DNA from: Croceicoccus mobilis
Lineage (GTDB): Bacteria > Pseudomonadota > Alphaproteobacteria > Sphingomonadales > Sphingomonadaceae
Reading direction: 5' to 3'
NCBI RefSeq assembly: GCF_001661965.1
Contig: NZ_LYWZ01000022.1
Span: 124,001 to 188,000 of the forward strand
DNA: 64,000 nucleotides
Shown: positions 38,951-64,000 of the stretch, piece by piece
Layout: each line of letters starts with the position of its first letter
Numbering within the stretch: position 1 is the stretch's first letter
Notes under the pieces: model-generated
What the model saw: only the letters and a program-made list of their open reading frames with translations
Told to the model about the DNA's origin: nothing
Database searches by the model: none
Translations under genes and position numbers: made by a program

Positions 38951-40615
38951 ATGAAAGCCTTTCGTATTGCCGCCGCAGCAGCCGCGCTTGCCACCACCGC
39001 CCTTTCTCCCGCAGCCTTTGCCGACACGCTGGTCAAGAACGTCAATGGCATGCGGGTCGACCAGGACGGCAAGCTCCACCGCTTTGCCGCGATGCTGATC
39101 GACGACGAGGGCCGCGTGGCCGAGCTTTACGAGCGCAAGGACAAGCTGCCCAAAAAGGTGGATTATGAAGTGGATGGCGATGGCCGCGTGCTGACGCCGA
39201 GCTTCATCGATGCGCATCTGCACCTCTCCATGCTCGGCTTTGCGGCGATGACGCTGGACCTGTCGGACACTTCCTCGCTGGAGGAGGCAAAAGCGAAGAT
39301 TGCCGAATACGCCGCGCGCTATCCGAACAAGGCGTGGATCATCGGCACGGGCTGGAACCAGGAAAAATGGGGCCTTGGACGCTTTCCCACGGCGGCCGAG
39401 CTTGATGCCATCGTGCCGGACCGCCCGGTCTGGCTGACCCGCGCCGACGTGCATGCAGGCTGGGCCAATAGCGCCGCGATTCGCGAAGCGGGCGTCACGG
39501 CCAAGACCAAGGACCCGGAAGGGGGCCGCATCGTGCGCGATGCCAAGGGCGCGCCCGCCGGGACCTTCATCGACGAGGCGATGAGCCCTTTCAGCGCCGC
39601 CCTCCCCGAACCGCGCCCGGAGGAACGCGATCTCGCCTTTGACAAGGCGCAGCGCATCCTGCTGGAGCATGGCATCACCGCCGCCGCCGACATGGGCACG
39701 ACCATGGAGGACTGGCAGGCGATGCGCCGCGCAGGCGATCTGGGGCGGCTGCAGATAAGGGTCATGAGCTATGCGTGGGGCATCGACAACATGGTCGCCA
39801 TTGCAGGTCCGGGTCCGACGCCATGGCTGTATCAGGACCGGCTGCGCATGGGCGGGGTGAAGCTGTTCCTCGATGGCGCGCTGGGGTCGCGCGGGGCGTG
39901 GCTGCTGGCCGATTACAGCGACGCGCCCGGCGAACGCGGACTGCCGCAGATCAATGGCACGCAGCTTCGCAACATGATGAGCCGCGCCTCCATGTCGGAT
40001 TTTCAGGTCGCGGTGCACGCCATCGGCGATGCCGCCAATCGCGAGGTACTCGATTCGATTGCCGAGATGAACGACACCTATGACGGCGACCGCCGCTGGC
40101 GAATCGAGCATGCGCAAATCATCGATCCAGAAGATTTGCCCCGGTTCGCGAAGCTGGGCGCCATCGCCTCGATGCAGCCGACTCACGAAACATCGGACTG
40201 GCGCATGGCCGAGGCGCGGCTTGGCCCCGATCGGCTGGGCGGCGCTTATGCGTGGCGTTCAATGCTGGAAAACTCCGTGCCGCTGGCATTCGGCAGCGAT
40301 GCCCCGGTCGAGCCGGTCGATGTCATGTCCGGTATCGCCGCGGCGGTCACCCGGCAGGACTCCGCGGGCGAACCTTTTGGCGGATGGCTGCCCGATGAAG
40401 CGATTTCACGCGAACAATCGCTGGGCGCATTCACGGCAGGCGCGGCCTATGCGGGCATGGCGGAAGGACGCTTCGGATCGCTGGCAGTCGGCGAATGGGC
40501 CGACTTCGTGTTCCTGAGCGACGACCCCATGATGGTCCCTGCGCCCGAGATCCGTGACATTCGCGTGCTCGAAACATGGATGGGCGGCCACAAGGTCTAT
40601 GACAATGAAGGATAG
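38951..40615 (+). CDS. Exported amidohydrolase, YtcJ-like family
   Basis: 554 residues from the ATG at 38951, starting with a signal peptide cleaved near SPAAFA-D (about residue 24). The metal-dependent hydrolase fold has the N-terminal metal site FIDAHLHLS (H89, H91), VHAIGDAAN and EHAQIIDPEDLP further metal ligands, and FGSDAPVEPVDVM with the catalytic aspartate. Family members cleave amide or cyclic imide bonds but the substrate is unknown. Divergent from ilvA, starts 58 bases apart. Confidence 0.88.
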   Translation: MKAFRIAAAAAALATTALSPAAFADTLVKNVNGMRVDQDGKLHRFAAMLIDDEGRVAELYERKDKLPKKVDYEVDGDGRVLTPSFIDAHLHLSMLGFAAMTLDLSDTSSLEEAKAKIAEYAARYPNKAWIIGTGWNQEKWGLGRFPTAAELDAIVPDRPVWLTRADVHAGWANSAAIREAGVTAKTKDPEGGRIVRDAKGAPAGTFIDEAMSPFSAALPEPRPEERDLAFDKAQRILLEHGITAAADMGTTMEDWQAMRRAGDLGRLQIRVMSYAWGIDNMVAIAGPGPTPWLYQDRLRMGGVKLFLDGALGSRGAWLLADYSDAPGERGLPQINGTQLRNMMSRASMSDFQVAVHAIGDAANREVLDSIAEMNDTYDGDRRWRIEHAQIIDPEDLPRFAKLGAIASMQPTHETSDWRMAEARLGPDRLGGAYAWRSMLENSVPLAFGSDAPVEPVDVMSGIAAAVTRQDSAGEPFGGWLPDEAISREQSLGAFTAGAAYAGMAEGRFGSLAVGEWADFVFLSDDPMMVPAPEIRDIRVLETWMGGHKVYDNEG

Positions 40616-49881: not shown

Positions 49882-50868
49882 ATGGCTGTCTACACCCGCA
49901 TCCCGGCCGAGGAGATGGCCGACATCATCGCGCATTTCGGCGTGGGCGAGCTGGTTTCCGCCAAGGGCATCGCCGAGGGCGTTTCGAACAGCAACTGGCT
50001 GATCGAGACGCGCGGCACCGGCACTTCGGGGCGCTTCATCCTGACCGTATATGAAGAGCGTACCGATGTGCGCGACCTGCCGTTCTTCCTCAACCTGCTC
50101 GACCATCTGGCCGCAGCGGGCTGCCCGGTTCCGCGCACCATCCATGACGAAACCGGCGCGCCGTTCCGCACCATCGACACCGCCAATGGCGAACGCAAGC
50201 TGGCGCTGATCGAATTCCTGCCCGGCGTATCCGCCGACGATCCCACGCCCGAGCAGGCGCATGCGATAGGCCGCGCGCTGGCCAGCGTGCATCTGGCAGG
50301 CCGCGATTTCTCCATGACCCGCAAAGACGGCATGGGCTTCGAGGCATGGCGCGGCTTCGTGCGCGATTGCGCCGGACGCTGGAGCGAGATCGACCCCGCG
50401 CTGGAGGCCGTGCCGGCTTATGTCGATTCCGTCATCGCCGCCTGGCCCGCAGACCTGCCGCAATCGACGATCCACGCCGATCTCTTCCCCGATAATGTGC
50501 TGCTGGTAGGGGACGAGGTTTCGGGCCTCATCGACTTCTATTTCGCCTGCACCGGGGCCATGGCCTACGACCTTGCCGTAACCCATGCGGCATGGAGCTT
50601 TTCCGCCGATGGCCGCGTGCAGAGCCACGCCATCGGCGATGCGCTGATCGCAGGCTATCGCAGCGTGCGCGAGCTTGAGCCCATCGAAATCGCGGCCCTG
50701 CCCGCGCTGGCCGGGGCAGGAAGCCTGCGTTTCCTCCTCACCCGCGCCTATGACTGGCTTTACACCCCTGCAGATGCGCTGGTGACGAAGAAGGACCCCA
50801 TGGCCTTTTTCCGTCGCCACGAATTCTATCGCGAAAATGGCGCTGCCGCCTTTGGGCTGTCTGCATGA
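49882..50868 (+). CDS. thrB: Homoserine kinase, ThrB type II
   Basis: Phosphorylates homoserine in threonine synthesis. 328 residues of the aminoglycoside-phosphotransferase-like fold used by alphaproteobacteria. [11 protein letters not shown] is the nucleotide loop, [17 protein letters not shown] the catalytic loop with its aspartate, and [11 protein letters not shown] the metal-binding motif. Overlaps rnhA by four bases. Confidence 0.93.
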
Positions 50869-51302
50869 GCGAAGTGCAGATCTTTACCGACGGGGCCTGC
50901 AAGGGAAACCCCGGCCCCGGCGGCTGGGGCGCGATCCTGCGCAAGGGCGAGACCGAAAAGGAAATGCACGGCTGCGAGGTCGAGACGACGAACAACCGCA
51001 TGGAGCTGACCGCGGTGATCCGCGCCCTGCAGGCCCTGAAGCGCCCGTGCCATGTCGAGCTTTATACCGACAGCAAATATGTCATCGACGGCATCACCAA
51101 ATGGGTCTTCGGCTGGCAGAAGAAGGGCTGGAAAACGGCCGCGAAAAAGCCGGTTCTGAACGAGGACCTGTGGCGCGAGCTGCTGGACGCCAGCCGCCCG
51201 CACAAGATCGACTGGAATTGGGTGAAGGGCCACGCCGGTCACCCCGAAAACGAGCGCGCCGACGAGTTGGCGAGCAATGCGGCCCTGAGCGCGCGGGCCT
51301 AG
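50865..51302 (+). CDS. rnhA: Ribonuclease HI
   Basis: Degrades RNA in RNA-DNA hybrids. 145 residues with the full catalytic set: [19 protein letters not shown] (first Asp), the MELTAV glutamate, [11 protein letters not shown] (second Asp) and [17 protein letters not shown] (His and last Asp). The gene is complete; the sequence changes abruptly about nine bases after its stop. Confidence 0.96.
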
Positions 51303-51311
51303 AGCGCGGTC

Positions 51312-51535
51312 TGTCGTCCGGCCCAAAAGTTGAATGCAATCATTTTTGAAAGCGCTGGAATCACGGGTTTTGTGTGTTTGGAAACCGGCCCAAAAAGTTC
51401 CGCAGATTCGCCCCATAAGTTGCAAGAAGCAGCCTGATCACGCCTAATAAGTTGAAGGATTTTGGCTGTTCAGCACCTAAGGTTATAACTAGCGGATAAA
51501 AACGCTTCAGAATCAGCCGATTAACTTATTGGCCG
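51312..51535. mobile_element. Putative Tn7-like transposon end
   Basis: The sequence opens TGTCGTCCGGCCCAAAAGTT (51312-51331). A motif of the form CC(C/T)AAWAAGTT occurs at 51321-51334, 51388-51401, 51409-51424 and 51441-51456, and once inverted at 51521-51535. A TGT terminus followed by several spaced transposase-binding repeats is the known layout of Tn7-family ends, and from memory the Tn7 right end has C, AA, AGTTG at the same offsets from its TGT. No transposase gene lies in the window. The candidate target duplication would be CGGTC at 51307-51311. Alternatives are regulator or replication iterons. Confidence 0.5.
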
Positions 51536-51898
51536 AACAGGCGGGGTTGGCTCCCGAGCGTCTCTATGTGGCGCGCGAGTGTTAGGCCTGTGAGGGTAGC
51601 GGGCAGCCTGTGCGCTAAGTTGGTCGAACCGAAACTGTAAGATTTATGGCGCGAAAACCGGGATAGCGGACGTTTCGTCTTACGAGCTAATGTGTCAGCT
51701 AAGCGCCCGGGTTCGGTCATGAGACGCGGCCCTTCGGTTGCCCGTTATCGGACATTTTTTCGAGCCGCAACAGAATGCCGCTAAATCAAGTTCGACAATT
51801 GGAAGGCACTTGATTCGCGTGTCGTCTGCATACCTCGGCATGTATAACGCTGATCCACTAAGTTTCTTGAAGGTCATGCCGAGATAGCGTGCGGTTCC

Positions 51899-52120
51899 GT
51901 GGCGCGTCGTTCAGAACAGATTGATTTCATGGAAGCAGCTACCGAGCGGGCTCCGCGTGCTCTTAAGGATCGTGCCCGCCGTGGGGCTCACTTGATGGCC
52001 GCAGCAAGCCCCGAAATAGGTGCGGCGCCTTTGCAGCTTATGATGGGTAACGCCTGCGGTGCCTTACGACCTCCAGTCAAAGACGGTGTGGCCTATGCCA
52101 AGGCGATAATCGGGTTCTGA
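51899..52120 (+). CDS. Unconvincing 73-codon reading frame
   Basis: GTG-started frame of 73 codons in the junction region, rich in Ala and Arg, with no recognised motif. It could be a decayed gene remnant or chance. Listed only because it is the longest plus-strand frame in this stretch. Confidence 0.15.
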   Translation: MARRSEQIDFMEAATERAPRALKDRARRGAHLMAAASPEIGAAPLQLMMGNACGALRPPVKDGVAYAKAIIGF

Positions 52121-52242
52121 ATTAGCTGACTAGGCTGACCGGATCGCTATTTTAACAACAGGCTACACTGGATACTTTCGAGTCTATTACTAGACCTCTG
52201 CGCCGGGCCGTGTGGCTAGGCCAAATTCGGGAATTACTGTCA

Positions 52243-52264
52243 CATAAACTTATGTTTGTTTATG
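52243..52264. promoter_or_regulatory. Inverted repeat upstream of ter operon, possible operator
   Basis: CATAAAC at 52243-52249 and GTTTATG at 52258-52264 form a perfect seven-base inverted repeat with an eight-base spacer, about 230 bases before the first ter start codon. It is a plausible dimeric-regulator site; no regulator gene is adjacent. Confidence 0.4.
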
Positions 52265-52344
52265 CCTTTTGCATGCCCGAATTCCGCGACCGCACGCTAA
52301 ACGACCTTTTAACGACAAACCCGTATATTGCTGCCGGTTTGAAT

Positions 52345-52373
52345 TTGACAGTCGGCGCAGTCGTTTAATAGCC
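52345..52373 (+). promoter_or_regulatory. Weak candidate promoter of ter operon
   Basis: A perfect -35 box TTGACA at 52345-52350 is followed after 15 bases by TAATAG, a poor -10. It sits about 120 bases before the first ter start. A CCAAGGGG ribosome-binding site lies just before that ATG. Confidence 0.3.
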
Positions 52374-52492
52374 TTCATCGGCAAACGCGCCAGCTGGGGG
52401 GCAGGGTCGCACATTACTTCCCACATTATTTGTTTCTTCTCGTCGCCAAACGGCGCTTTCGCGCCATTTGCGTCTAATCCAAGGGGACTTCC

Positions 52493-53077
52493 ATGACGAT
52501 TTCATTAAAAAAGAACGAGGCTGTCAGCCTTTCGAAGAGCGCGCCGAACGGCCTGACCAGCATCACGCTGGGCGTGGGCTGGGACGCTGCCAAGCCCAAG
52601 GGTTTCCTCGGCGCAGTCTTTGGCGGCGGCGGCGATATCGATCTCGACGCATCGGCACTGATGTTCACGTCCGGTCGCCAGGTTGTCGACAGCGTCTGGT
52701 TCGGTGCCCTGACTAGCAAGGACGGCTCAGTTCGCCACAGCGGCGACAACCTGACGGGTGATGGCGACGGTGACGACGAATCCATCGCCATCGACCTGAT
52801 GCGCCTACCGCCGAACATCGAGACCATCGTGCTGACCGTGAATTCGTTTCGTGGCCAGACGTTCGACAAGGTCGAAAATGCATTCGGGCGCGTCGTCGAC
52901 AATCGTACGGGCCGCGAGCTTGCGCGCTTCGACATCTCCGACAGCGGCCCGCACACCGGCATCATCCTTGCCAGCCTGACCCGCGCCGGTGGCGACTGGA
53001 CCTTCAAGGCGCTGGGCGAACGCGCCGGCGGCCGCACCGTCCATGATCTGGTGAGCCCGTCGGCCGCCCTCATCTGA
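52493..53077 (+). CDS. TerD-family protein, TerZ-like
   Basis: 194 residues, one TerD domain. MTISLKKNEAVSLSKS is the typical first strand, DIDLDASALMF and GDNLTGDGDGDDESI are the calcium-binding acidic motifs, and FDISDSG closes the domain. TerD proteins bind calcium and assemble with TerC at the membrane in tellurite, phage and stress responses. It carries an inserted glycine-rich loop (GFLGAVFGGGG) near residue 40 that the two later TerD proteins lack, and so is closer to TerZ. First gene of the operon. Confidence 0.88.
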   Translation: MTISLKKNEAVSLSKSAPNGLTSITLGVGWDAAKPKGFLGAVFGGGGDIDLDASALMFTSGRQVVDSVWFGALTSKDGSVRHSGDNLTGDGDGDDESIAIDLMRLPPNIETIVLTVNSFRGQTFDKVENAFGRVVDNRTGRELARFDISDSGPHTGIILASLTRAGGDWTFKALGERAGGRTVHDLVSPSAALI

Positions 53078-53084
53078 CCTGAAA

Positions 53085-53110
53085 GGGGCGGCTCTCATCA
53101 GGGCTGCCCC
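53085..53110 (+). other. Hairpin between first and second ter genes
   Basis: GGGGCGGC (53085-53092) pairs with GCTGCCCC near 53110 with one G-U pair. No T-run. One of a series of inverted repeats in the spacers of this operon. Confidence 0.55.
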
Positions 53111-53142
53111 ATTCTGTTTCTTGCTCAGAACTGGAGTTCCCG

Positions 53143-54309
53143 ATGCAAATGCAAAAGGGTGAAAAGCGCGGATTGGCCGATCTCGGCATCGGCTCGCGCT
53201 GCACTGTCAAAGTCGATTTCGGCCTCGATGGGGTCGATATCGCAGCCTTCGGCCTCAATGGCGCCAAGAAGATCGGCGACGACCGCTATGTCGTTCTCTT
53301 TTCGAACCCGAAAACGCCGGAAGGCGCGATCGAGATGATGTCCACCTCGGATAATGCCGTGTTCAATCTCGATCTCGACAGGCTGCCGAGCTCGATCGAT
53401 CGCATCGTCTTCACCGCGACACATGACAATCAGCCGATTTCGCGCGCGCGCCCGCTCATTGTCACCGTCGACGGCAACAAGGCTAGCTTCGACGTTGCAT
53501 CGAGCCTCAGCAATGAGAAGGCTGTGATGATGATCGAGATCTACCGCCATTCGAGCGGTTGGAAAATCGGGGCCATCGCCGCAGGCTTCGCAGGCGGGCT
53601 TGCCGCTCTTATCACCCATTTCGGCGGCGAGGTCGCGGACGCGCCCGCACCACCGCCACCTCCTCCTCCGCCGCCGCCGCCACCGCCGCCGCCGCCTTCG
53701 GCGCCGGTTAACCTGCGCAAGATCACGCTCGAGAAATCCAATCCGAGCGTGAGCCTGACGAAGAAGGGCGACAGCTTTGGCGAGATCGTGCTCAACCTTA
53801 ACTGGAATGCGGGAAGCGCCAAACGCGGTTTCTTCGGCGGGTCAAAGGCTGTCGATCTCGACCTCGGTGTGCTTTTCGAACTTCAGGACGGGTACCGCGG
53901 CGTCATCCAGGCGCTGGGCAACCAGTTCGGCGGATTCCATTCCGAACCGTGGATCGAGCTATCGGGCGATGATCGCACCGGCGCAGTCGCTGCGGGCGAA
54001 ACCATCCGCATCAACGGCAAATACTTCGACCGCATCAAGCGGATCGCAGTCTTCGCGCTGATCTACGACGGCGTGCCGAACTGGCAGCAGACCGATGGCA
54101 TCGTGCGCATGAACATCCCGGGCCAGCCCGAGATCGAAGTGCAGATGAACGAAGGCCGCAATGACCGCCGCCTGTGCGGCATCGCGCTCATCGACAATGT
54201 CGGCGGGCAGATGAAGGTCACCCGCCACATGCAATATTACCAGAACCAGAAGCCCTTCGCCGACGACATCGGCATTTTCCTGCGCTGGACCGCAGGTTCG
54301 AAGGACTGA
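53143..54309 (+). CDS. Two-domain TerD-family protein with 16-proline linker
   Basis: 388 residues: a divergent TerD-like domain (about 1-160, ending in KIGAIAAGFAGGLAALITHFG), a run of 16 consecutive prolines (P170-P185), and a second TerD-like domain (about 195-385, with VDLDLGVLFELQDGYRGVIQ and ELSGDDRTGAVAAGE). The second acidic motif is reduced compared with classic TerD. The proline rod should hold the two domains apart; translation through it would normally need EF-P. An ATG at codon 3 is an alternative start; GGAG precedes the first. Similar tandem proteins are called TerA-like. Confidence 0.82.
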   Translation: MQMQKGEKRGLADLGIGSRCTVKVDFGLDGVDIAAFGLNGAKKIGDDRYVVLFSNPKTPEGAIEMMSTSDNAVFNLDLDRLPSSIDRIVFTATHDNQPISRARPLIVTVDGNKASFDVASSLSNEKAVMMIEIYRHSSGWKIGAIAAGFAGGLAALITHFGGEVADAPAPPPPPPPPPPPPPPPPSAPVNLRKITLEKSNPSVSLTKKGDSFGEIVLNLNWNAGSAKRGFFGGSKAVDLDLGVLFELQDGYRGVIQALGNQFGGFHSEPWIELSGDDRTGAVAAGETIRINGKYFDRIKRIAVFALIYDGVPNWQQTDGIVRMNIPGQPEIEVQMNEGRNDRRLCGIALIDNVGGQMKVTRHMQYYQNQKPFADDIGIFLRWTAGSKD

Positions 54310-54319
54310 TCGCCACTCC

Positions 54320-54351
54320 AGGCCGCCGGTCATAGCGCCCGGCGGCCTTTT
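54320..54351 (+). terminator. Terminator-like hairpin inside ter operon
   Basis: GGCCGCCGG (54321-54329) pairs with CCGGCGGCC (54339-54347), followed by TTTT. It looks like an intrinsic terminator yet sits only 11 bases past one ter gene and about 20 before the next on the same strand, so it may attenuate rather than end the transcript. Confidence 0.65.
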
Positions 54352-54368
54352 CAATAGGGGGAACCCAA

Positions 54369-55472
54369 ATGCTCAAGAACTTCTACGGCTCGATAATCTT
54401 CACGATTATCTGCCTCACGCTCGCCGGCGTTGTCGGCTATACCGAAAGCGGCGGCGCGCTTGGCGTTGCTGCGACCATGGTCTTCATCGCTGCCATCCTC
54501 GGTGTCATGGAAACCTCGCTCAGCCTCGACAACGCGGTCGTCAATGCCTCGGTGCTCAAGGACATGGACGAGAAGTGGCAGAACCGCTTCCTTACATGGG
54601 GCATCGCCATTGCCGTGTTCGGCATGCGTATCGTCTTCCCGCTCGCTATCGTCGCGATCGCGGCGTGGGTGTCGCCATGGGAAGCACTCTCCATCGCGAT
54701 CTCCGACAAGACGCGCTATGAAGAAATCGTCACGGGGGCCCATGTCGGCATCTCCGGGTTCGGCGGCGCATTCCTGATGCTGGTCGGCCTGACCTTCTTT
54801 TTCGACGATGACCGCGAGCACCACTGGCTGGGATTCATCGAAAAGCCGCTCTCTGCTTTCGCGAAGATCCCGTTCTCGCCCTATATCGCGACCGCCGTCA
54901 TCGTGGCCGCCCTCTCGCTGCTTGTAGAAGGTAGCGAACGCCAGACTTTCCTCATCGCAGGCCTGTCGGGCGTCGCCACCTTTTTCGCGGTCGAAAAACT
55001 AGGCGATCTGCTTGGCGGCGAAGAAGATGCAACCGGCAAGGTCGTCCGTTCGGGCGCCGGCGGTTTCATCTATCTGGAATTTCTCGACGCATCCTTTTCC
55101 TTCGATGGTGTCATCGGCGCCTTCGCCATTACCAACGACATCCTGATCATCGCTCTTGGCCTCGGCATTGGCGCGATGTTCGTGCGATCGATGACCATCG
55201 CGCTCGTTCGCGGCGGCCATCTGTCGGAATACCGCTATCTCGAGCCGGGTGCATTCTATGCGATCATCGCTCTGGCCGTCATCATGCTGATGAGCATCCG
55301 CATCCACACGCCCGAGATTGTGACCGGCCTCATCGGCGCCGTTCTGATCGGCGCGGCCTTCTGGGCTTCGGTCCGCCACCAGAAGCTCTTCCCCGAGGAA
55401 TACGAGGAAGATGGCGATGCCGATGCAATCCTGCCGACCGGCGACGTCCAGCCCGACGTCCACACCGCCTGA
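54369..55472 (+). CDS. DUF475 / TerC-like integral membrane protein
   Basis: 367 residues with about nine membrane segments. GVMETSLSLDNAVVNASVL (about 47-65) and LEFLDASFSFDGVIGAFAIT (about 237-256) are the two TerC-superfamily repeats, with the acidic residues thought to handle metal ions. The full-length pattern matches the DUF475 branch rather than classic TerC. It is the expected membrane anchor for the TerD proteins. GGGGGAA precedes the ATG. Confidence 0.88.
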   Translation: MLKNFYGSIIFTIICLTLAGVVGYTESGGALGVAATMVFIAAILGVMETSLSLDNAVVNASVLKDMDEKWQNRFLTWGIAIAVFGMRIVFPLAIVAIAAWVSPWEALSIAISDKTRYEEIVTGAHVGISGFGGAFLMLVGLTFFFDDDREHHWLGFIEKPLSAFAKIPFSPYIATAVIVAALSLLVEGSERQTFLIAGLSGVATFFAVEKLGDLLGGEEDATGKVVRSGAGGFIYLEFLDASFSFDGVIGAFAITNDILIIALGLGIGAMFVRSMTIALVRGGHLSEYRYLEPGAFYAIIALAVIMLMSIRIHTPEIVTGLIGAVLIGAAFWASVRHQKLFPEEYEEDGDADAILPTGDVQPDVHTA

Positions 55473-55479
55473 ATGGCAA

Positions 55480-55504
55480 GCGGCGGGAGCGAACCTCCCG
55501 CCGC
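55480..55504 (+). other. Hairpin after DUF475 gene
   Basis: Perfect ten-base stem GCGGCGGGAG/CTCCCGCCGC with a five-base loop, eight bases past the stop. No T-run, so probably an RNA-stability or processing element rather than a terminator. Confidence 0.7.
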
Positions 55505-55543
55505 CACCGCCAGAGCCACCCCAGAACCGCGAGAGACACAATC

Positions 55544-56722
55544 GTGAACATGATGATGGGCGCCAATGCGCCAGTTCAAGGAGATGCCGTCAGCATTTCC
55601 TGGCTCGAAAATCCCATCGGTGCCGATCTCGATATCTGCGCCTATCTTCTCGATGCCTCCGGCAAGGTGCTGGGCGATGAGGGCATGGTGTTTTACGGCC
55701 AGACGCAAGTGCCCGGCGTGGGAATGGCGGTAATAGGAAAGAGCGCGACCTTTCAGCTCGACTATGCCGCCATTCCGGATCGGATCGAGCGCATTGCGCT
55801 TTGCGCCGTGCTCGATACGGGCAAGGCCTCCGCTGCCGACCTCGCGCAGGCCAAGCAGCTCACCATGGCGATGGGCCAGCTGTCCTTCACGATCGATCTA
55901 GCCGGGAAGAGCGAAAAAGCGCTCATCATCGGTGAGGTCTACAAGCGCAACGGAGCTTATAAGCTGCGCGCCGTCGGACAGGGCTTCGATGGCGGCCTCA
56001 TGGCAATCGCAACCCATTTTGGCGTCAACGTGCAAGCTGATCCGAGCAGCTCTGCTCCGCCACCGGCGGCACCTGCTCCTGCACCGGCGCCGACACGAGC
56101 ACCCGAACCGTCACCGGCTGCGGCACCCGCCGCTTCGACTATCTCGTTAAAGAAAGTCACGCTCGCAAAGGCCGAGAAAGTCAGCCTCGCCAAGGCCGGC
56201 GGCGCCATTCGCGCGCTGCTTTCGTGGGAAGGCCGCGGCGCGGGTGAAGGCGATCTCGATTTCTACTGCTTCTACGTCACCAAGGATGGCAAGAGCGGCA
56301 AGGTTTACTGGAAGGACCTTGGCTCGAGCGCTTCCTTCCCCTTCATTGCGCATTCGGGCGATGCGTTGCGGGCAGGTGAAGAGGCCATCGTCATCGAACG
56401 GCCCGAGACGCTGCGCTACGCGCTGTTCGCGGCCTATTCGGCAGTCAAGAACGGCGCGGGCTCCTTTGCCAGCTACCGCCCGAAGATGACCCTGACAGAT
56501 CAGGCCGGCAACGAGGTCACGATCCCGCTGCTGAACCCGAACGACACCTCATACTGGGTGGCCATTTCACATCTCTCCCTGGGTGAGACCGTCGATATTG
56601 AGCATATCGAGACATATGGGAAAAATGGCTTCCCGCACATGATCGCCGCCGAGCGCGCGCCGCGCCTGCATCCCGACGGAAGCTGGGATGTCAGCAAAGG
56701 CGAGATCGAATTCAAGAAATAG
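55544..56722 (+). CDS. Two-domain TerD-family protein, TerA-like
   Basis: 392 residues: a TerD-like domain (about 1-163, [20 protein letters not shown] at the start, [19 protein letters not shown] at the end), an Ala/Pro linker (about 166-200) and a second domain (about 201-392) beginning [19 protein letters not shown]. The second domain has [11 protein letters not shown] but lacks the classic acidic calcium loop. The GTG at 55544 is eight bases after GAGAG; three ATG codons follow at 55550, 55553 and 55556. Same layout as the protein at 53143 but with a different linker. Confidence 0.8.
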
Positions 56723-56748
56723 CCGGTTTTCAAAGCACGTTGCACCCA

Positions 56749-56787
56749 TGGCGGAAAGTGCGGCGCGCATCCGGTTTCATTCCGCCA
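56749..56787 (+). other. Inverted repeat before first classic terD gene
   Basis: TGGCGGAA (56749-56756) and TTCCGCCA (56780-56787) are a perfect eight-base pair with a 23-base spacer, in the 92-base gap before the next gene. Confidence 0.5.
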
Positions 56788-56814
56788 AGAACCTCAAGAA
56801 AGGACTACGATACC

Positions 56815-57393
56815 ATGGCAATTTCGCTCTCCAAGGGTGGCAATGTCTCGCTCTCGAAGGAGGCTCCCGGTCTCGACCAGATCATGATCGGCCTGGGCTG
56901 GGACGTTCGCGCAACCGATGGCAAGGACTTCGACCTTGACGCCTCGGCCTTCCTGCTCGCCTCGAGCGGTCAGGTGCGCTCGGATGCCGACTTCTGCTTC
57001 TACAACAACATGAACGCCGCTGGCGGCGCGGTCATCCACCAGGGTGACAACCGCACCGGTGAAGGCGAAGGCGACGATGAGCAGGTGCAGATCACGCTCA
57101 GCAAGATGCCGGCCGATGTCGACAAGGTCGCGATCGTCGTGACGATCCACGAAGGCGAAGCCAACGGCCAGTCCTTCGGCCAGGTCTCGAACGCCTTCAT
57201 CCGCCTCGTCGATGAGAAGACCGGCAAGGAAGTCGTCCGGTATGATCTGTCGGAAGACGCTTCGACCGAAACCGCGATGATCCTCGGCGAAGTCTATCGT
57301 CACGGCACCGACTGGAAGTTCCGCGCCGTCGGCCAGGGCTTCGCTGGCGGCCTCGGCCCGCTCGCCAAGAACTACGGCGTGAATATCGGCTGA
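56815..57393 (+). CDS. terD: Tellurium resistance protein TerD
   Basis: 192 residues, the exact family length. [30 protein letters not shown] and the calcium loop [14 protein letters not shown] are all intact, as are NAFIRLVDE and [10 protein letters not shown]. The start at 56815 follows AAAGGA; the frame is open upstream but the extra residues are not TerD-like. Very similar to the next gene, probably a tandem duplicate (TerD/TerE pair). Confidence 0.95.
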
Positions 57394-57397
57394 TCTC

Positions 57398-57458
57398 TGG
57401 CTGCTCATGACGGGCAGCCAGGATGCAATAGGTCGCCGGGGCAGACGCTCCGGCGACC
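57398..57458 (+). other. Two hairpins between the terD duplicates
   Basis: TGGCTGC (57398-57404) pairs with GCAGCCA (57414-57420), and GGTCGCCGG (57431-57439) pairs with CCGGCGACC (57450-57458). Neither has a T-run. Confidence 0.6.
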
Positions 57459-57493
57459 AGCCAACTCAATTCTACGACCAGGAACGCTCACAC

Positions 57494-58072
57494 ATGGCAG
57501 TATCGCTCCAGAAAGGCGGCAACGTCTCTCTCTCCAAGGAAGCTCCCGGGCTTTCGTCCGTCACCGTCGGTCTCGGCTGGGACGTTCGCAAGACCGATGG
57601 CGCCGCCTTCGACCTCGACGCATCGGCCTTTGCCGTTGGCCAGGACGACAAGGTGCTCTCCGACGCGCATTTCGTCTTCTACAACAACACCAAATCGCCT
57701 GACGGCGCTGTCATCTACGGCGGCGACAATCGCACCGGTGAAGGCGAGGGCGATGACGAAACGATCTCGATTGATTTCGGGAAACTTCCCGCTGACGTGA
57801 AGAAGGTCGTGATCGCGGTCACCATCCATGAAGGCCAGCAGCGCGGACAGAACTTCGGCTCGGTCTCCAACGCCTTTGCCCGCGTCGTCAACGACGCGGA
57901 CAAAATGGAACTTGCTCGGTTCGACCTTAGTGAAGACTCCAGCATGAATGCCGCCATGGTGTTCGTCGAACTCTACCGCCGCGATGGCGACATCAAGGTG
58001 AAGGCGATCGGCGAAGGCTGGGAATCCGGTTTGGCTGGCCTCGCGTCCTCGATGGGCGTCAACATCGGCTAG
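57494..58072 (+). CDS. terD: Tellurium resistance protein TerD (second copy, TerE-like)
   Basis: 192 residues. [44 protein letters not shown] and [10 protein letters not shown] match the copy just upstream; the two can be aligned without gaps over nearly their whole length. The calcium loop is intact. GC-rich inverted repeats follow in the 79-base gap to the ATP-grasp gene. Confidence 0.95.
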
Positions 58073-58151
58073 GCCAGGCGGCGGCGACGCATCTTGTCCC
58101 TGCGCGCCGCCGCCACCTTCCTATCCCTTTTCCCAAGGAAATTCCCGCTCG

Positions 58152-59162
58152 ATGCGTATCTGGTTCAATCGCGGTTTCTCGCTCGCTCCCATCGCCCAGG
58201 CCATGCTGGCCGCCGACAGCTCGCTTGAAGTGCTCGTCAGCGTAGGTGAGGGCAGGCCGGTATATTCCGGCCCGACCGAGACATTCGAAGAACCCGATCT
58301 CGAGCCGTCGGAATATGTGGATTGGGTCCGAGACCAGATTGCCCGGCGCCAGATCGACGTCTTCGTGCCGACCCGGCTGCGCGAGCATTTCTACGATGCG
58401 GATCTTCCGTGCCGGGTCCATTTCCCCTGCTCGAAATCTAATTATCTGGTGATCGAGGACAAACAGGCCTTTTCGGACGCCACCGCCAACGAGCCCTTCC
58501 ATCTGCCAACATGGCCCGCCTCATCGGCCGACGAGCTGGAGGAGAGGCTGGCGCTGTTCCGTGCCTGGCACGATGAGAGCCTCCCCTGCGTCAAGCCGCG
58601 CAAGGGCGTAAACGGTCACGGCTTCTGGAAACTACCCAAGGATACAGCGCCGAGCGCGCATCTCCTCCATCCCGAATTTCACACTATGCGATCCGACGTT
58701 TTCATCGCCGCGCTGCGCATTCAGGAGCGGGAAGAACCGATCGCTCCTCTGGTGCTCATGGATTATCTGCCCGGTCCCGAAATCTCCTTCGACGTGCTCG
58801 CGCATGAAGGCCAGATTCTGAAATATGTCGCGCGCACCAAATTTGACCGGCGGCAGTCCATTCAAAGTCCACATTTCCTCGAAAGCGAAGCAGCCGTACT
58901 GGCCGCTCGCTTTATGCTCTATGGCCTTGTGAACCTGCAGTTCCGCAAGGCCATAGATGGCAGTTGGAAAATCCTCGAGATCAATGCCCGCCCTGCAGGC
59001 GGCAGCATCTATGCCGAAGATTACGGTGCTGGCCTCATCGCCGACTGGGGCGGCCTCCTGAGCGGCAGGCTCACAGCTAACGACATCAAGCCGGTGAAGA
59101 TCGATATCGAATTCGAGACCACGAGCATTCGCAGGCTCATCGAGCAGAAGGAGGCTGCATGA
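58152..59162 (+). CDS. ATP-grasp enzyme of the ter biosynthetic module
   Basis: 336 residues. The N-terminal domain (about 1-105) is a preATP-grasp fold, the ATP-grasp core runs from about 110 to 320: PCVKPRKGVNGHGFW (nucleotide lysine and glycine loop), LVLMDYLPGPEISFDVLAH, and LEINARPAGGSIYAEDYGAG with the metal-binding Glu/Asn. Such enzymes join a carboxylate to an amine or thiol using ATP. In Ter operons an ATP-grasp protein of this kind is a known member of the set thought to make a nucleoside-like metabolite. Overlaps the next gene by four bases. Confidence 0.87.
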   Translation: MRIWFNRGFSLAPIAQAMLAADSSLEVLVSVGEGRPVYSGPTETFEEPDLEPSEYVDWVRDQIARRQIDVFVPTRLREHFYDADLPCRVHFPCSKSNYLVIEDKQAFSDATANEPFHLPTWPASSADELEERLALFRAWHDESLPCVKPRKGVNGHGFWKLPKDTAPSAHLLHPEFHTMRSDVFIAALRIQEREEPIAPLVLMDYLPGPEISFDVLAHEGQILKYVARTKFDRRQSIQSPHFLESEAAVLAARFMLYGLVNLQFRKAIDGSWKILEINARPAGGSIYAEDYGAGLIADWGGLLSGRLTANDIKPVKIDIEFETTSIRRLIEQKEAA

Positions 59163-60313
59163 CACAGGCGATTTCCGGTCAGCGCATCACGCTGACAGGC
59201 ACCAGCGAAATCCTGATCCGCTTTGCCGGCCGCGATGCTTCGCGCCTTTCCGTGGCAGCCTTTACCGGCAGCGGCGCGCTTCACCCTCTCGACCAGATGG
59301 GCACGACCGATTGGCGGCTGTCGGGCTGCAATCACGACAAGCTCGAGATCGTCGCCTACATCACGGACGACAAGCAGGGCGGCTTCGTCAATTCCGCCTA
59401 TCCGTGCACTGTCACCATCGATGGAACGAGCTACAGCTTCCCCGAACCTGTGGAGCAGCTCGCGGCCGTCATCATCGGTGAAATCTACACCAAGAGCGGT
59501 ACCGTTCGCATGAAAGTATCGAACGAAGGCTTTACCTTCGGCATCGATGCCTACGCGCGGGCCCGTAATCTCGGCGACCTTCCCATTCCGAACCGCAGCA
59601 GGCCGCGCGACAATGCTCCCCGGCCGTCGCCGTGGGGCGACAATCCCTCTCCCGATCGCAGCTCGCCGTGGGGCGACCCGTCACCGCCACCTCGCGGAGG
59701 CGCCTTTGCAAGCGGTAGCGGCGTTCTCATAGGCCCGAACCTGATCGTGACGAATGCCCATGTGATCGATGGCGGCAACGAGTTCGCGCTCGGTCGCACC
59801 CAGCAGCGACTGGTCCCGGTTGCCGTTGACCCGATGCACGACCTGGCGCTCCTGCAAGGACAGATACAGGGTGAGCCCTTGCCGATCCGGATCAATTCGC
59901 CCGTCTGGCTGGGCGAAGCAGTCATGGCCGCCGGCTATCCGCTGATGGAGGTGCTCGGCGCCGACCTCAAGGTCACGACCGGCAATGTCTCAGGCCTCAC
60001 CGGCGGACAGGGCGATGTATCGCGCTTCCAGTTCTCAGCCCCGATCGGATCCGGCTCGTCGGGCGGAGCGATCATCGATGAGGAAGGCAATCTCATCGGG
60101 ATCACCTCTGCATCGCTCGCGCACCAGAATTTCCGCGACCGCGGCGCAATCTCCGAAAACGTCAATTTCGGCATCCGCGCAGCCATTGTCTTCGAGATGA
60201 TCGCTGCTGCTGGCATGCCGCTGCCCACGACCGCTGCCCAGGCAGGCGGCAATCGGCGCGATGTCACCAACCGATTGCGCAACTCGGTCGTCTCCATTCT
60301 CGTCTCGGCATAG
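59159..60313 (+). CDS. TerD-like domain fused to trypsin-like serine protease
   Basis: 384 residues. Residues 1-135 follow a short TerD-like domain: KLEIVAYITDDKQGGFVN, then AAVIIGEIYTKSGTVRMKV and GFTFGIDAYARA; the acidic calcium loop is not preserved. A Pro/Trp/Gly linker with repeated PSPWGD-type units spans 143-180. Residues 183-345 are an S1C/HtrA-like protease with H201 in VTNAHVIDGG, D228 in MHDLALL and S301 in GSGSSGGAI. No PDZ domain and no signal peptide, so it should act in the cytoplasm beside the other TerD proteins. Translationally coupled to the ATP-grasp gene. Confidence 0.85.
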   Translation: MTQAISGQRITLTGTSEILIRFAGRDASRLSVAAFTGSGALHPLDQMGTTDWRLSGCNHDKLEIVAYITDDKQGGFVNSAYPCTVTIDGTSYSFPEPVEQLAAVIIGEIYTKSGTVRMKVSNEGFTFGIDAYARARNLGDLPIPNRSRPRDNAPRPSPWGDNPSPDRSSPWGDPSPPPRGGAFASGSGVLIGPNLIVTNAHVIDGGNEFALGRTQQRLVPVAVDPMHDLALLQGQIQGEPLPIRINSPVWLGEAVMAAGYPLMEVLGADLKVTTGNVSGLTGGQGDVSRFQFSAPIGSGSSGGAIIDEEGNLIGITSASLAHQNFRDRGAISENVNFGIRAAIVFEMIAAAGMPLPTTAAQAGGNRRDVTNRLRNSVVSILVSA

Positions 60314-60321
60314 GAGTACCC

Positions 60322-61377
60322 ATGGGTTTCCGGTTCCAGAAACGCATTTCCATTCTTCCCGGCGTTCGCCTCAATCTCTCCAAGAGCGGCGCCAGCTGGT
60401 CGGTCGGTCCGCGCGGCGCCTCGGTCAATATCGGAAAGCGCGGCATTTTCGGAAACGTCGGCATCCCCGGGACCGGTCTCAGCTACCGGGAGCGCCTCGA
60501 CAAGCCTGCAGGCCGCGCATCCGCGCCCGCCCGTCCGTCCGCAGCAGCCAGCCTTCCCGATCGTGTCGTCGCGCGCATGACCGGCGACGAGGTCGTACTT
60601 CTCGACCCGCAGGACAGGCCGCTTGATCCCGAACTGGTTCCGGCTGCCAAGCGCCTGATGAAAGATGATCTCAAGGTCTTCCTCGACGACCACGCCGCTG
60701 ACCGAAACACCGAATTGCAGAAGCTGCGCTTTTTGCATCACGATATTCCGCGCACGACAGGGAGCGTTACGGCCGGCAATGCAGGCAAGCCGTCACGCGA
60801 ACAATTCTTCGATCAGCAGTCCTATATGGATGCGCTGATGCGCTGGCGTGCCGAACAGGCCAACAGCGGTCCCGACGCCGATGCGCTCGCTGATGCCTTG
60901 CTGGTCAGCCTCGGTGCGCTCGATTGGCCTGCAGAGATCAATATTGCGCTCGCTGTCACCGGCGGCCGCGTGCTTCTCGATGTCGATCTTCCAGAGATCG
61001 AGGATATGCCCGATGCAACCTGGAAGCCCGTCTATACGCGGCTCGAGCTCGTGCAAAAGCCGATGACGAAGAAGGACCATGGCGGGTTTTATCTCGATCA
61101 CGTCTGTTCGATCCTGATGCGGCTCGCAGGGCATAGCTTTGCCACCAGCGCCGACATCAAGACCGTCGCCCTGTCTGCCTATACCCAGCGCGCTGCATCG
61201 ACTGGCCGCGTTGACGACGAATATGTCGCCACCGCCGAAATCACCCGTGCGCAGTGGGCCGAAGTCGACCTTTCCGGCCTGGGCCGGATCGACCCCCACC
61301 AACTGCTGCGGCGCTTTGGCGCGAAGATCGAAACGAACGCGCGCGGCAAGCTTCTCGTTCAGACCCCTCTTAGCTGA
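60322..61377 (+). CDS. DUF4236 protein with large uncharacterised C-terminal region
   Basis: 351 residues. The first 60 (MGFRFQKRISILPGVRLNLS, then WSVGPRGASVNIGKRG and GNVGIPGTGLSY) are a clear DUF4236 domain, a short glycine-rich beta module of unknown role. An alanine-rich linker (about 62-78) leads to a 270-residue mixed alpha/beta region with no family I recognise. AGGAG precedes the ATG, eight bases after the protease stop. Its place in the operon suggests a scaffold or partner of the protease fusion, but that is inference. Confidence 0.75.
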   Translation: MGFRFQKRISILPGVRLNLSKSGASWSVGPRGASVNIGKRGIFGNVGIPGTGLSYRERLDKPAGRASAPARPSAAASLPDRVVARMTGDEVVLLDPQDRPLDPELVPAAKRLMKDDLKVFLDDHAADRNTELQKLRFLHHDIPRTTGSVTAGNAGKPSREQFFDQQSYMDALMRWRAEQANSGPDADALADALLVSLGALDWPAEINIALAVTGGRVLLDVDLPEIEDMPDATWKPVYTRLELVQKPMTKKDHGGFYLDHVCSILMRLAGHSFATSADIKTVALSAYTQRAASTGRVDDEYVATAEITRAQWAEVDLSGLGRIDPHQLLRRFGAKIETNARGKLLVQTPLS

Positions 61378-61413
61378 GATCACCGGCCTGAAGCCGGATG
61401 AAAGGAAAAGACC

Positions 61414-62559
61414 TTGGACACTGCAATCATGGGCGAGACGAAGACCGTCGAACTCGTCACGGGGACGCTGGACCTCGAAGTCGCCAAGGGACCGCCCATC
61501 GACGAGATGTGCGATTTCGCAGCGCGGGCGAACCCGAAGCGCGGCTTCCTGATCGTCTCCAAGGTGCTGGGCCGCCACATGCCCGCGCGCCCGAAGCAGA
61601 TGCGCGCGACCATGCGGCAGCTCGCAGAAGGCATCAGCCAGCAGCTACCCGAGCCCATCGTATTCCTCGGAATGGCCGAGACCGCGACTGCGCTCGGCCA
61701 GGGCGTCTTCAGCGCCTACCAGCAGATGACCGGACAGAGACTCGTCTATCTCCAGACATCCCGCCAAAGGATGCCAGGCGCATCGGTTCTGACCAGCTTC
61801 GAGGAAGGTCACAGCCATGCGACCTCTCACATGGTGCAGATCGCACGCCCCAACCTTGAGACCACCATCGCCAAGGCACGATCGCTCGTCATCGTCGATG
61901 ACGAAAGCAGCACCGGGAACACGTATCTTGCCGCCGCCGAGGCCATGGCCGCCGTCATGCCCGCGCTCGAGACCATCGAAACAGTCTGCATCACCGACTG
62001 GAGCGACGGCGCCTATCTCGCTTCCATGCCCAAACCCGCGCGAGCCGTCTCGCTGCTGGCTGGCCGCATGAAATGGACCAAGGGCGCAGAGCACAAGGCA
62101 GCGCCCCTTCCGTCGGGCTCGAACGAAGCAGGCGCAGCGCCAGCTTCGGCCATGAAAAGCCGGGGCGGCATTACCATGACCGATATCGCGACCCGGCCGT
62201 TCACCTCTGCCCGCAAAGGCGAGCGCGTTCTGGTGCTGGGCGACGGCGAGCATTCCTACGAAGCTTTGCGCATTGCCGAAGACATCGAACGCCAGGGAGG
62301 TATCGCCGCGGTCCAATGCATTACCCGCAGCCCGGCGCTGCTCGGCCATGCCATGCAAAGCGTCTCGCATTTCGATGATGCCTATGGCTCGGGAGCGCCC
62401 TGCTATCTCTACAACATCCTCTCGCACCAGCCCGATCGCATCATCATCGCAGCCGAAAAACTCGGCAACCAGCGCATGAAGGCGCTGGAGGCGCTGCAAG
62501 AGCTGGGCGCGGAGATCCCGGTGGAACTCTATGAATGCCGCTACGAGGGCGGCAATTGA
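61414..62559 (+). CDS. Phosphoribosyltransferase with TRSP domain
   Basis: 381 residues. The N-terminal half is a PRTase with the PRPP loop DDESSTGNT (162-170) and YLQTSRQRMPG upstream. A short disordered stretch (about 220-250) leads to the C-terminal TRSP domain, whose name-giving motif is visible as T304-R305-S306-P307 in CITRSPALLG. This fusion is a hallmark of the biosynthetic part of Ter operons and is thought to help build a nucleoside-like compound. The likely start is TTG at 61414, seven bases after AAGGA; the first ATG (61429) is 22 bases away and less well placed. Confidence 0.88.
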   Translation: MDTAIMGETKTVELVTGTLDLEVAKGPPIDEMCDFAARANPKRGFLIVSKVLGRHMPARPKQMRATMRQLAEGISQQLPEPIVFLGMAETATALGQGVFSAYQQMTGQRLVYLQTSRQRMPGASVLTSFEEGHSHATSHMVQIARPNLETTIAKARSLVIVDDESSTGNTYLAAAEAMAAVMPALETIETVCITDWSDGAYLASMPKPARAVSLLAGRMKWTKGAEHKAAPLPSGSNEAGAAPASAMKSRGGITMTDIATRPFTSARKGERVLVLGDGEHSYEALRIAEDIERQGGIAAVQCITRSPALLGHAMQSVSHFDDAYGSGAPCYLYNILSHQPDRIIIAAEKLGNQRMKALEALQELGAEIPVELYECRYEGGN

Positions 62560-63299
62560 TGGGCCCGCTCGTTCTCACCGATCTCGACGACACGCTCTTC
62601 CAGACCCTGCGCAAGTGCCCGCCCGCCATGGGCGACGGCAAGCTTATGTCGACGCTGGCCGATGGCAGTCCGAGTGGCTACGCGAGCGACCGGCAAGTCC
62701 GCTTCATCGAATGGCTCGACCACGGCCAGATCGTTCCTGTCACCGCGCGCAGCCGCGAAGTGCTTGAGCGGGTCGCGATCCGGCAGGCTCCGGCCATCTG
62801 CGCCAACGGCGGCTGCATCATCGATGGCGCCGGCAACGTCGATCAGGACTGGCATGCGCATCTGAAGGCTGAATCGCTCGAGATCGATCCTGTTCGCGAG
62901 ATCCATCTGCTCGCAACCGACGGGCTTGTCTCATCCGCATATCGGCATTGGATCGTGCAGGAAGGCGACCTCAATCTCTATTTCGTGGTCAAGGCCAACG
63001 GAGACGATCTCAGCATTCTCGATGAGGCTGAGCGCCGCGCAGCCATCCATGCGCCGCAGGGATGGCGTATCCACCGCAATGGCAACAATCTCGCCGTGCT
63101 GCCGCCCTGGCTCAACAAGCGCCACGCGGCCCGGCACCTGATTGAGATCCGGCGCGAGAGCGACCCTCATCTACCGGTCATCGGCATCGGCGACAGCCAT
63201 TCCGATGTTGGTTTCATGGACCTGTGTGATTTCGCGATGACACCGACGAACTCGCAGGTCTGGACCCTGCTTACAAAGGAGAATGGCTGGTGCAGCTGA
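62559..63299 (+). CDS. HAD-family phosphatase of the ter module
   Basis: 246 residues; the ATG overlaps the preceding stop by one base. The HAD nucleophile motif is LVLTDLDDTLF (D8, D10), motif II lies in VPVTARSR, and motif IV is GIGDSHSDVGFMD. The cap resembles Cof/sucrose-phosphatase types. A HAD phosphatase is a regular member of the Ter biosynthetic set, presumably removing a phosphate from the PRTase product. Confidence 0.88.
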   Translation: MGPLVLTDLDDTLFQTLRKCPPAMGDGKLMSTLADGSPSGYASDRQVRFIEWLDHGQIVPVTARSREVLERVAIRQAPAICANGGCIIDGAGNVDQDWHAHLKAESLEIDPVREIHLLATDGLVSSAYRHWIVQEGDLNLYFVVKANGDDLSILDEAERRAAIHAPQGWRIHRNGNNLAVLPPWLNKRHAARHLIEIRRESDPHLPVIGIGDSHSDVGFMDLCDFAMTPTNSQVWTLLTKENGWCS

Positions 63300-63322
63300 C
63301 CGCTCATAAAGAAGGGAAAACC

Positions 63323-64000
63323 ATGCATTTTTCCGGCAGCTATCCTCCCGAAGACGTCCGTATCCTCTTGAAGCCCGCCCAGATCGAGGCAACTCCGGTC
63401 GAAGAAAAGGAAGCCCTTATCCAGTCGGGTAAGCGGCATTATTCCGAGATGCTTTCAGCCGAAAAGGTGCCGGACGAGCGATACATGACCCTGTTTCGCG
63501 AGGCACTGAGCCGCAACAAGACCCGCCTGCGCTATGACATCGATTTGCTCGCCCGCATGATCCGCGCGCGGACGCAGACGCATTTCAAATGCGTGCTGGT
63601 CTCGCTCGCTCGCGCAGGCACGCCGATCGGGGTCTTGCTGAGCCGATCACTGAAGCGCCTCGGCGTCGAGGTTCACCACTATTCCGTGAGCATCATACGC
63701 GGAAGGGGCATCGATGAGAACGCGATGCGCCATATCCTCGATCGCCATGACGCAAGGCATATCGTGTTCGTCGACGGATGGACGGGGAAGGGCGCAATCA
63801 CCCGGGAACTGGAGACCTCGCTCGCCAAGCAGCGTCTCGGCATCGCGCCGTTTCTCGCCGTGGTAGCCGATCCTGCCGGCACAGCGCACCTTGCAGCGAC
63901 AAGCGAAGACTATGTCATCCCGAGCGGGCTGCTCAATGGCATCGTTTCCGGTCTCATCAGCCGCTCGGTTCTCAACGAAGATATCGTCGGAGAGGACGAC
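63323..64000 (+). CDS. StiP-family protein (PRTase-like), partial at right edge
   Basis: First 226 codons; the gene continues past the window. FSGSYPPEDVRILLKP opens the protein, followed by ALIQSGKRHYSEML and VPDERYMTLFREAL, which are the StiP family signature, and a PRTase-like core with LVSLARAGTPIGVLLSR and IVFVDGWTGKGAITREL as the PRPP-type loop. ATG at 63323 has GAAGG seven bases upstream; an in-frame GTG at 63290 would overlap the HAD gene. Known Ter partner. Confidence 0.85.
   Translation, partial: MHFSGSYPPEDVRILLKPAQIEATPVEEKEALIQSGKRHYSEMLSAEKVPDERYMTLFREALSRNKTRLRYDIDLLARMIRARTQTHFKCVLVSLARAGTPIGVLLSRSLKRLGVEVHHYSVSIIRGRGIDENAMRHILDRHDARHIVFVDGWTGKGAITRELETSLAKQRLGIAPFLAVVADPAGTAHLAATSEDYVIPSGLLNGIVSGLISRSVLNEDIVGEDD

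Follow-up and report, generated by a model that had tools for sequence, protein, structure and literature searches.

A TGT, a cluster of short repeats and a ter operon follow rnhA, the gene for ribonuclease HI, in the window (the whole 64-kb stretch that was analysed, G000:C15:124001-188000). The question raised by this locus is whether these features mark the end of a Tn7-like transposon, and whether the 3' end of rnhA is the site that the transposon recognises, as had been proposed in a sequence-only reading. The feature very probably belongs to a complete 43.4-kb Tn7-like transposon, of which it forms the left (cargo-side) end, with a TniQ targeting the rnhA 3' end. That an element exists here is near certain. 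The features within the window were as follows.

50865..51302, plus strand: rnhA, ribonuclease HI, proposed attachment gene (ORF; Pfam RNase_H 6.9e-53)
51307..51311, no strand: target-site duplication (TSD) CGGTC, 5 bp (partner C15:218734-218738, outside the window)
51312..64000, plus strand: in-window portion of the 43,422-bp element (ends and target duplication)
51312..51334, plus strand: terminal inverted repeat TGTCGTCCGGCCCAAAAGTTGAA, 23 bp, perfect (partner C15:218711-218733, minus strand)
51324..51331, plus strand: predicted TnsB site 1, element position 13 (site scan)
51392..51399, plus strand: predicted TnsB site 2, element position 81 (pattern and site scan)
51414..51421, plus strand: predicted TnsB site 3, element position 103 (pattern and site scan)
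51446..51453, plus strand: predicted TnsB site 4, element position 135 (pattern and site scan)
51523..51530, minus strand: inverted copy of the site motif, element position 219 (pattern and site scan)
52493..58072, plus strand: ter genes, five TerD-domain ORFs and one TerC/DUF475 ORF (Pfam)
58152..64000, plus strand: ter-linked ORFs, ATPgrasp_Ter, trypsin-like, DUF4236, PRTase_2/TRSP and StiP/PELOTA (Pfam)

The end behind rnhA

The rnhA product matched the NCBIfam ribonuclease HI family (6e-72, over the family cut-off), and the ORF was undamaged by the insertion. Its stop lies at 51302 and the TGT begins at 51312, nine bases beyond, as the sequence-only reading had noted. The pattern CCYAAWAAGTT, with at most one mismatch, was matched five times in 64 kb against 0.72 expected, and at least five matches were reached in 0 of 100 shuffles. 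Four of these matches (three direct and one inverted) lie within 51389-51533, and the fifth is at 39149. A further direct copy, GGCCCAAAAGTT at 51320-51331, has the pattern length minus one base and is therefore absent from the matches; with it, the four direct copies and one inverted copy originally described were all recovered. A looser scan of the element's first 260 bases identified five sites, at element positions 13, 81, 103, 135 and 219 (the last inverted), whereas composition shuffles gave a mean of 0.44 and reached at least five in 0 of 300. The drop in GC and coding density past rnhA was likewise seen. From 0.653 in the preceding bin, GC fell to 0.563 and then 0.571 in the two consecutive 1-kb bins that start at 51001, and no listed ORF of at least 80 aa overlapped 51426-52467.

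The second end and the transposition genes

The 1,190 bases behind rnhA were used as the query for a search of the genome. The sole non-self match was to the first 23 bases, inverted and 100% identical, at C15:218711-218733; the inverted partner of 51312-51334 thus sits 43.4 kb rightward, past the window. CGGTC is present outside both ends (51307-51311 and C15:218734-218738) as a 5-bp target duplication. The element so delimited spans C15:175312-218733 (43,422 bp), and its right end would be window position 94733. The termini are TGT and ACA, and the first site core is at position 13 on both ends. At the tnsA-side end, sites were predicted at 13 and 109 (inverted), a count of two being reached in 4% of shuffles. 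An inverted end terminating in ACA beside CGGTC had been anticipated from the sequence and is found at G000:C15:218733/218734-218738. The tnsA, tnsB, tnsC and tniQ-like genes that had been expected to the right of 64000 are all present inside this far end.

C15:217837-218553, minus strand: tnsA, 238 aa (Pfam TnsA_N 8.6e-8)
C15:215621-217840, minus strand: tnsB, 739 aa (Pfam Mu-transpos_C 1.3e-5)
C15:214678-215697, minus strand: tnsC, 339 aa (Pfam TniB 5.2e-20)
C15:212780-214651, minus strand: tniQ, 623 aa (Pfam TniQ 1.7e-13)

All four lie outside the window with intact frames, in the order tnsA, tnsB, tnsC, tniQ inward from the right end. Solved Tn7-like proteins were matched with the TnsB profile (1e-64), the TniQ profile (4.2e-12) and TnsC (8.9e-34); the top-scoring solved TnsB, TnsC and TniQ chains were those of type I-F3 CAST, followed by V-K CAST and the Tn7 TnsB. 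The DDE residues of TnsB are D284, D375 and E412. Walker-type motifs (GETGVGKT and ICDEF) were identified in TnsC, the E..PD..EVK motif of TnsA was in place, and TniQ contains CPEC and CPRH. A predicted model of TniQ (mean pLDDT 73.7, from six sequences) matched a TniQ crystal structure with a Z of 16.0 and an rmsd of 5.5 over 284 aligned residues, within the first 380 residues. The C-terminal part beyond ~380 gave no clear structural match, and PadR-like PDB matches to it (Z about 5) were too weak to use.

The element therefore has the composition of a Tn7-like transposon. It encodes TnsB (a DDE transposase) and TnsC (an AAA+ ATPase) together with both TnsA and a TniQ-family protein, it is flanked by CGGTC on both sides, and it has TGT/ACA 8-bp ends with arrays of predicted TnsB sites. 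PMC11406308 includes element-encoded TnsB and TnsC in the definition of Tn7-like elements, and gives TGT ends as usual and non-TGT ends as permitted. Since TnsA is present, movement by cut and paste would be expected. The second end, the CGGTC duplication and the tns genes support the proposal that the ter operon is cargo of a Tn7-like element.

Cargo

The ter-linked block runs past the window with C-C bond lyase and TelA (Pfam), and one of its ORFs in 58152..64000 gave a weak SseB_C match, under the cut-off. The element carries a second operon:

G000:C15:194754-205117 (L004:7754-18117): cellulose (bcs) operon (Pfam)

A BcsQ-type ORF, a BcsC C-terminus, Cellsynth_D and GH8 were identified in this operon, and two TadE-like ORFs adjoin it in the cargo. 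One 1,449-aa ORF of the operon matches both cellulose synthase/glycosyltransferase and BcsB families. IS elements in the cargo included IS66 genes and an ISL3 transposase, and there was also an rve/HTH_21 ORF. A tyrosine-recombinase ORF downstream of tniQ is shortened (189 aa) and lies near IS genes. Judged from family names only, the cargo would make the host resistant to tellurite and stress and able to produce cellulose. A single Tn7-like element here carries entire ter and cellulose operons.

Empty sites and distribution

The rnhA gene was found in all 14 genus genomes searched (own genome included), and the motif array behind it was missing from all 13 others. The element's motif had no match within 350 nt behind rnhA in the 12 genus-mates scanned; in the thirteenth (L065), DUF1508 lies within about 37 nt of the rnhA match, which indicates an empty site. 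The scan used this element's own motif, and an end with a differing motif could escape it in L059 and L060, in which neither DUF1508 nor DAO was present in the stretch examined. DUF1508 follows rnhA in 8 of the 13 genus-mates, and DAO is within the stretch in 11. The suggested comparison of rnhA downstream regions in related genomes thus yielded empty sites without the array.

The element lineage is rare in the sampled family, order and class genomes. Among 397 family genomes, the TnsB profile at 1e-90 matched the own genome and G961, and the coordinates of the G961 match are those of a Porphyrobacter MAG described below. At 1e-60, 6 genomes matched among the 396 of the order and 2 among the 385 of the class, the own genome being counted each time. 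No plasmid TnsB match exceeded 33% identity among the matches listed (30 of 4,780 records), and the 18 pattern matches in viral contigs included no relative.

Related elements

A TnsB-alignment pattern scan of contigs from 84,980 species returned 10 loci, and others came from the family and order searches. The group analysed comprised eight distinct elements; L044-L047, G358, G348, G345 and weaker matches were left out as more distant. L041 and L042 have the same match coordinates and scores and were counted once. This locus is present in a Verrucomicrobiaceae MAG and a Sphingomonadales MAG, and is probably one sequence binned twice. Five of the eight elements are at rnhA (four of them closed) and begin within 9 nt behind its end, or inside it; two lie behind a SWIB-domain gene, and one (G429) is without defined ends or target, a search for an end pair with equal TSD having found none. 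The G429 element (L029, L051, L052) is Tn7-like and, by ORF reading, adjoins a type I restriction-modification-like pair and metal-efflux-like genes.

The four closed rnhA elements, this one included, are in four genomes and have four different 5-bp duplications. The S. jeddahensis G39 element (G445/L043) has the ends TGATAGATAGAG... and TGATGGATCGGG..., and its TSD, GGTAG, is the last 5 nt of rnhA, stop included. In Sphingomonas sp. A2-49 (L039) the TSD is GGCTG, within the rnhA end, and in G156 (L037) it is GCGGC, within the last rnhA codons. The G156 locus has TniQ only, with no tnsABC found there. Two of the closed relatives have TGA ends. The Porphyrobacter MAG has the end-like TGAAAACAGGGGCAAAAGCTGTCC directly past the rnhA stop on contig C9, and tns genes and the other end on contig C17, next to DAO; split over two contigs and with unlike TSD candidates, it was not counted as closed. 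The rnhA relatives are distant from this element (TnsB 30-35% identical where present).

The S. jeddahensis G39 element (L030) looks decayed, with tniQ in two frames and a stop in the tnsB match. Between the element end and tnsA it has two ORFs that fit no clear family. Behind rnhA in the Porphyrobacter MAG (L048:5619-8664), a CapP-like peptidase (4.8e-71) and a DUF6791/ThiF E1-like protein are likely cargo and possibly an anti-phage defence.

The SWIB-site elements were found in Sphingomonas CROZ-RG-20F-R02-07 (L040) and Sphingomonadales UBA2369 (L042). They have the same four genes and the same end layout as this element, with the first end site at position 13. Their tniQ-side end adjoins the target gene, a small SWIB gene, and in both follows its H-V-K codons at a distance of exactly 30 nt. 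The L040 target product matched Pfam SWIB (2e-30), and the L042 target was identified as SWIB by reading its frame alone. The UBA2369 element has the TSD GCGGC; the far (R) end of the CROZ element was not found. They are unlike this element in their target, a SWIB-domain gene, and the rnhA site in the CROZ and UBA2369 genomes is empty, with rnhA and DAO about 184 and 12 nt apart by matches, respectively.

Orientation

The tniQ/cargo side of this element faces rnhA. With the tnsA-side end next to rnhA in S. jeddahensis and A2-49, and tniQ directed away from rnhA in G156, the orientation here is opposite to that of these three closed relatives. The tniQ-side sites are at 13/93/126 in S. jeddahensis, 13/94/127 in A2-49 and 13/70/94/126 in G156, and those on the rnhA side in the window are similarly placed, at 13/81/103/135. 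The tnsA-side end was poorer in sites in all five elements compared, the site counts at this sparser end being small and partly within chance (A2-49: one site, 18% of shuffles). The arrangement of sites fits a turned element, not an inversion of the gene block alone. Such a turn could also have arisen after insertion, through homologous recombination between the inverted ends.

According to PMC11406308, Tn7-like elements differ in which end is next to the att site, with a tendency for this to be the end with overlapping sites; in Tn7 the att site is on the right-end side, and orientation control is little understood. Contrary to this tendency, the site-richer end faces away from rnhA in S. jeddahensis and A2-49.

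The recognised gene

On the sequence comparisons, rnhA is likely to be the recognised gene for the group; for this turned copy it is somewhat less certain. The relatives at rnhA (five of the eight group elements) and the empty sites support the proposed attachment site at the rnhA 3' end, which is the likelier candidate here and not the sole one. The Asp of the NER(A/V)D motif of RNase HI is presumably an active-site (catalytic) residue. From the Glu codon of this motif to the element start, the distance is 60 nt in the window, 54, 53 and 41 nt in the closed relatives and 51 nt in the Porphyrobacter MAG, a span of 19 nt. In Tn7, the stretch bound by TnsD measures 36 bp, lies at the end of glmS between +23 and +58 relative to the insertion, and encodes the active site region of GlmS (PMC2918618). 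The same interval here spans the codons around NER(A/V)DxLAS of RNase HI.

We consider it probable, on balance, that a sphingomonad Tn7-like lineage uses rnhA recurrently as a safe-haven site, a lineage in which a long TniQ reads the DNA for the active-site end of RNase HI and in which both target and facing end have switched. TniQ, whose C-terminal part is long as in the selector TnsD, would bind the conserved DNA for the last part of RNase HI, around the NER(A/V)DxLAS codons, and would then recruit TnsC. TnsAB would excise the element through the TnsB-site arrays, and insertion would follow 41-60 nt beyond the conserved codon, at or behind the rnhA end. The facing end would differ between lineages, with the multi-site cargo end towards rnhA here. 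A recognition mechanism common to the rnhA elements is not shown by these comparisons, since in the TnsB comparison this element branches outside the other rnhA-site elements, and its TniQ is no closer to the rnhA-site TniQs than to the SWIB-site TniQs, two sets which the TniQ tree does not separate.

The other candidate is the DUF1508 gene on the right flank, with rnhA merely a convergent neighbour ~100 bp away. This gene (Pfam DUF1508 8.9e-13) stops 88 nt short of the right-hand TSD and points its 3' end at the tnsA-side end, which would fit the right-end-proximal rule of Tn7 (PMC11406308), and its frequent position behind rnhA in the genus-mates is in keeping with this. However, the att side varies between Tn7-like elements (same source), and the insertion point here fits the rnhA distance series. 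The far flank in G156 is an MgsA_C (RarA-type) gene (1.3e-7), with neither DUF1508 nor DAO at the locus and DAO on another contig, which leaves rnhA as the common neighbour. For S. jeddahensis G39, a DAO oxidoreductase was identified on the far side, and DUF1508 was not detected in that flank. The site-richer end facing rnhA here is a weak argument against DUF1508, since it fails in S. jeddahensis and A2-49. Recognition of DUF1508 is considered unlikely.

A single ancient insertion at rnhA, vertically inherited and later decayed and diverged, would agree with the rnhA-site members all belonging to the family of the window or to records that bear the name Sphingomonas or Porphyrobacter; it is highly improbable, as the TSDs, exact positions, orientation and far flanks differ and the array is missing from all 13 genus-mates. 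Chance insertion into a harmless intergenic spot, with rnhA coincidental, is barely credible: the rnhA distances do vary by several nt and sister elements lie behind another gene, but the recurrence at the rnhA end, the separate duplications of the closed elements and the identical 30-nt spacing of both SWIB-site elements all speak against it. A tRNA target was discounted, as no tRNA was present in the window or in L005.

Comparison with known systems

The element with its rnhA site resembles Tn7 with TnsD and glmS, as described in PMC2918618 and PMC11406308, in its gene order (TnsA, TnsB, TnsC, then a TniQ-family selector), in its TGT/ACA ends with several TnsB-like sites and a 5-bp TSD, and in its insertion just behind a conserved gene that is left unbroken. 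The CPEC and CPRH motifs of TniQ are also similar to the zinc-binding CCCH pattern of TnsD (PMC2918618). It does not belong to Tn7 proper (the glmS group), as its flanks are rnhA and DUF1508 instead of glmS, and the cargo end, not the right end, faces the target. Unlike TnsD, the 623-aa TniQ has a C-terminal part without a clear structural match.

The best-scoring solved TnsB, TnsC and TniQ by sequence were from type I-F3 CAST (Tn6677, PseCAST). In contrast to these systems, there is one long TniQ here. Only two-copy direct repeats, none of them CRISPR-array-like, were present over C15:175300-218800, Rfam gave no match over C15:175001-227000, and no cas families were found among the ORFs scanned (some small ORFs being outside the scan); CRISPR guidance and CAST membership were rejected on these grounds. 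Tn6022/comM elements with TnsF are similar in being Tn7-like and in a conserved protein gene, and a tyrosine-recombinase ORF lies downstream of tniQ here. They differ in that the recombinase ORF here is the shortened one and the insertion is behind, not inside, the gene. A TnsF-like partner was discounted, as the distance from the end of tniQ to the element end is only 118 nt in S. jeddahensis, 50 nt in CROZ and 163 nt in UBA2369, which leaves no room for such a gene.

The known attachment genes include glmS, parE, comM, guaC, yciA, ffs, rsmJ and tRNA genes (PMC10293859, PMC8649781, PMC11406308 and PMC2918618). The sequence-only reading had found the rnhA target unfamiliar for this family, and no report of rnhA as a Tn7-like attachment gene was found among the open-access titles and abstract openings listed, a scope that excludes supplements and subscription journals. 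rnhA looks like a new attachment site for Tn7-like elements. These elements bear on the open question of how TniQ/TnsD proteins acquire new targets, and a small set of relatives in which two targets and both orientations occur lends itself well to swap experiments. If our reading is true, it provides matched pairs in which to find the TniQ parts and end arrays that set target and orientation. Genome engineering in Alphaproteobacteria may also profit from a natural site of integration that needs no RNA guide and follows a conserved gene.

Other TniQ loci in the genome

A further TniQ-family gene was identified on another contig of the same genome (G000:C25:2330-2779, 1.1e-19). A 3.5-kb block with a transposase ORF (rve, Mu-transpos_C) is also present at small-contig ends (G000:C28-C32, e.g. 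L072:55-3376). Its 595-aa ORF matches TniB and TniQ, a TnsC-TniQ fusion. There were seven TniQ matches for this block, and the six copies compared share an identical 3,507-nt block, which is a multicopy element or an assembly repeat.
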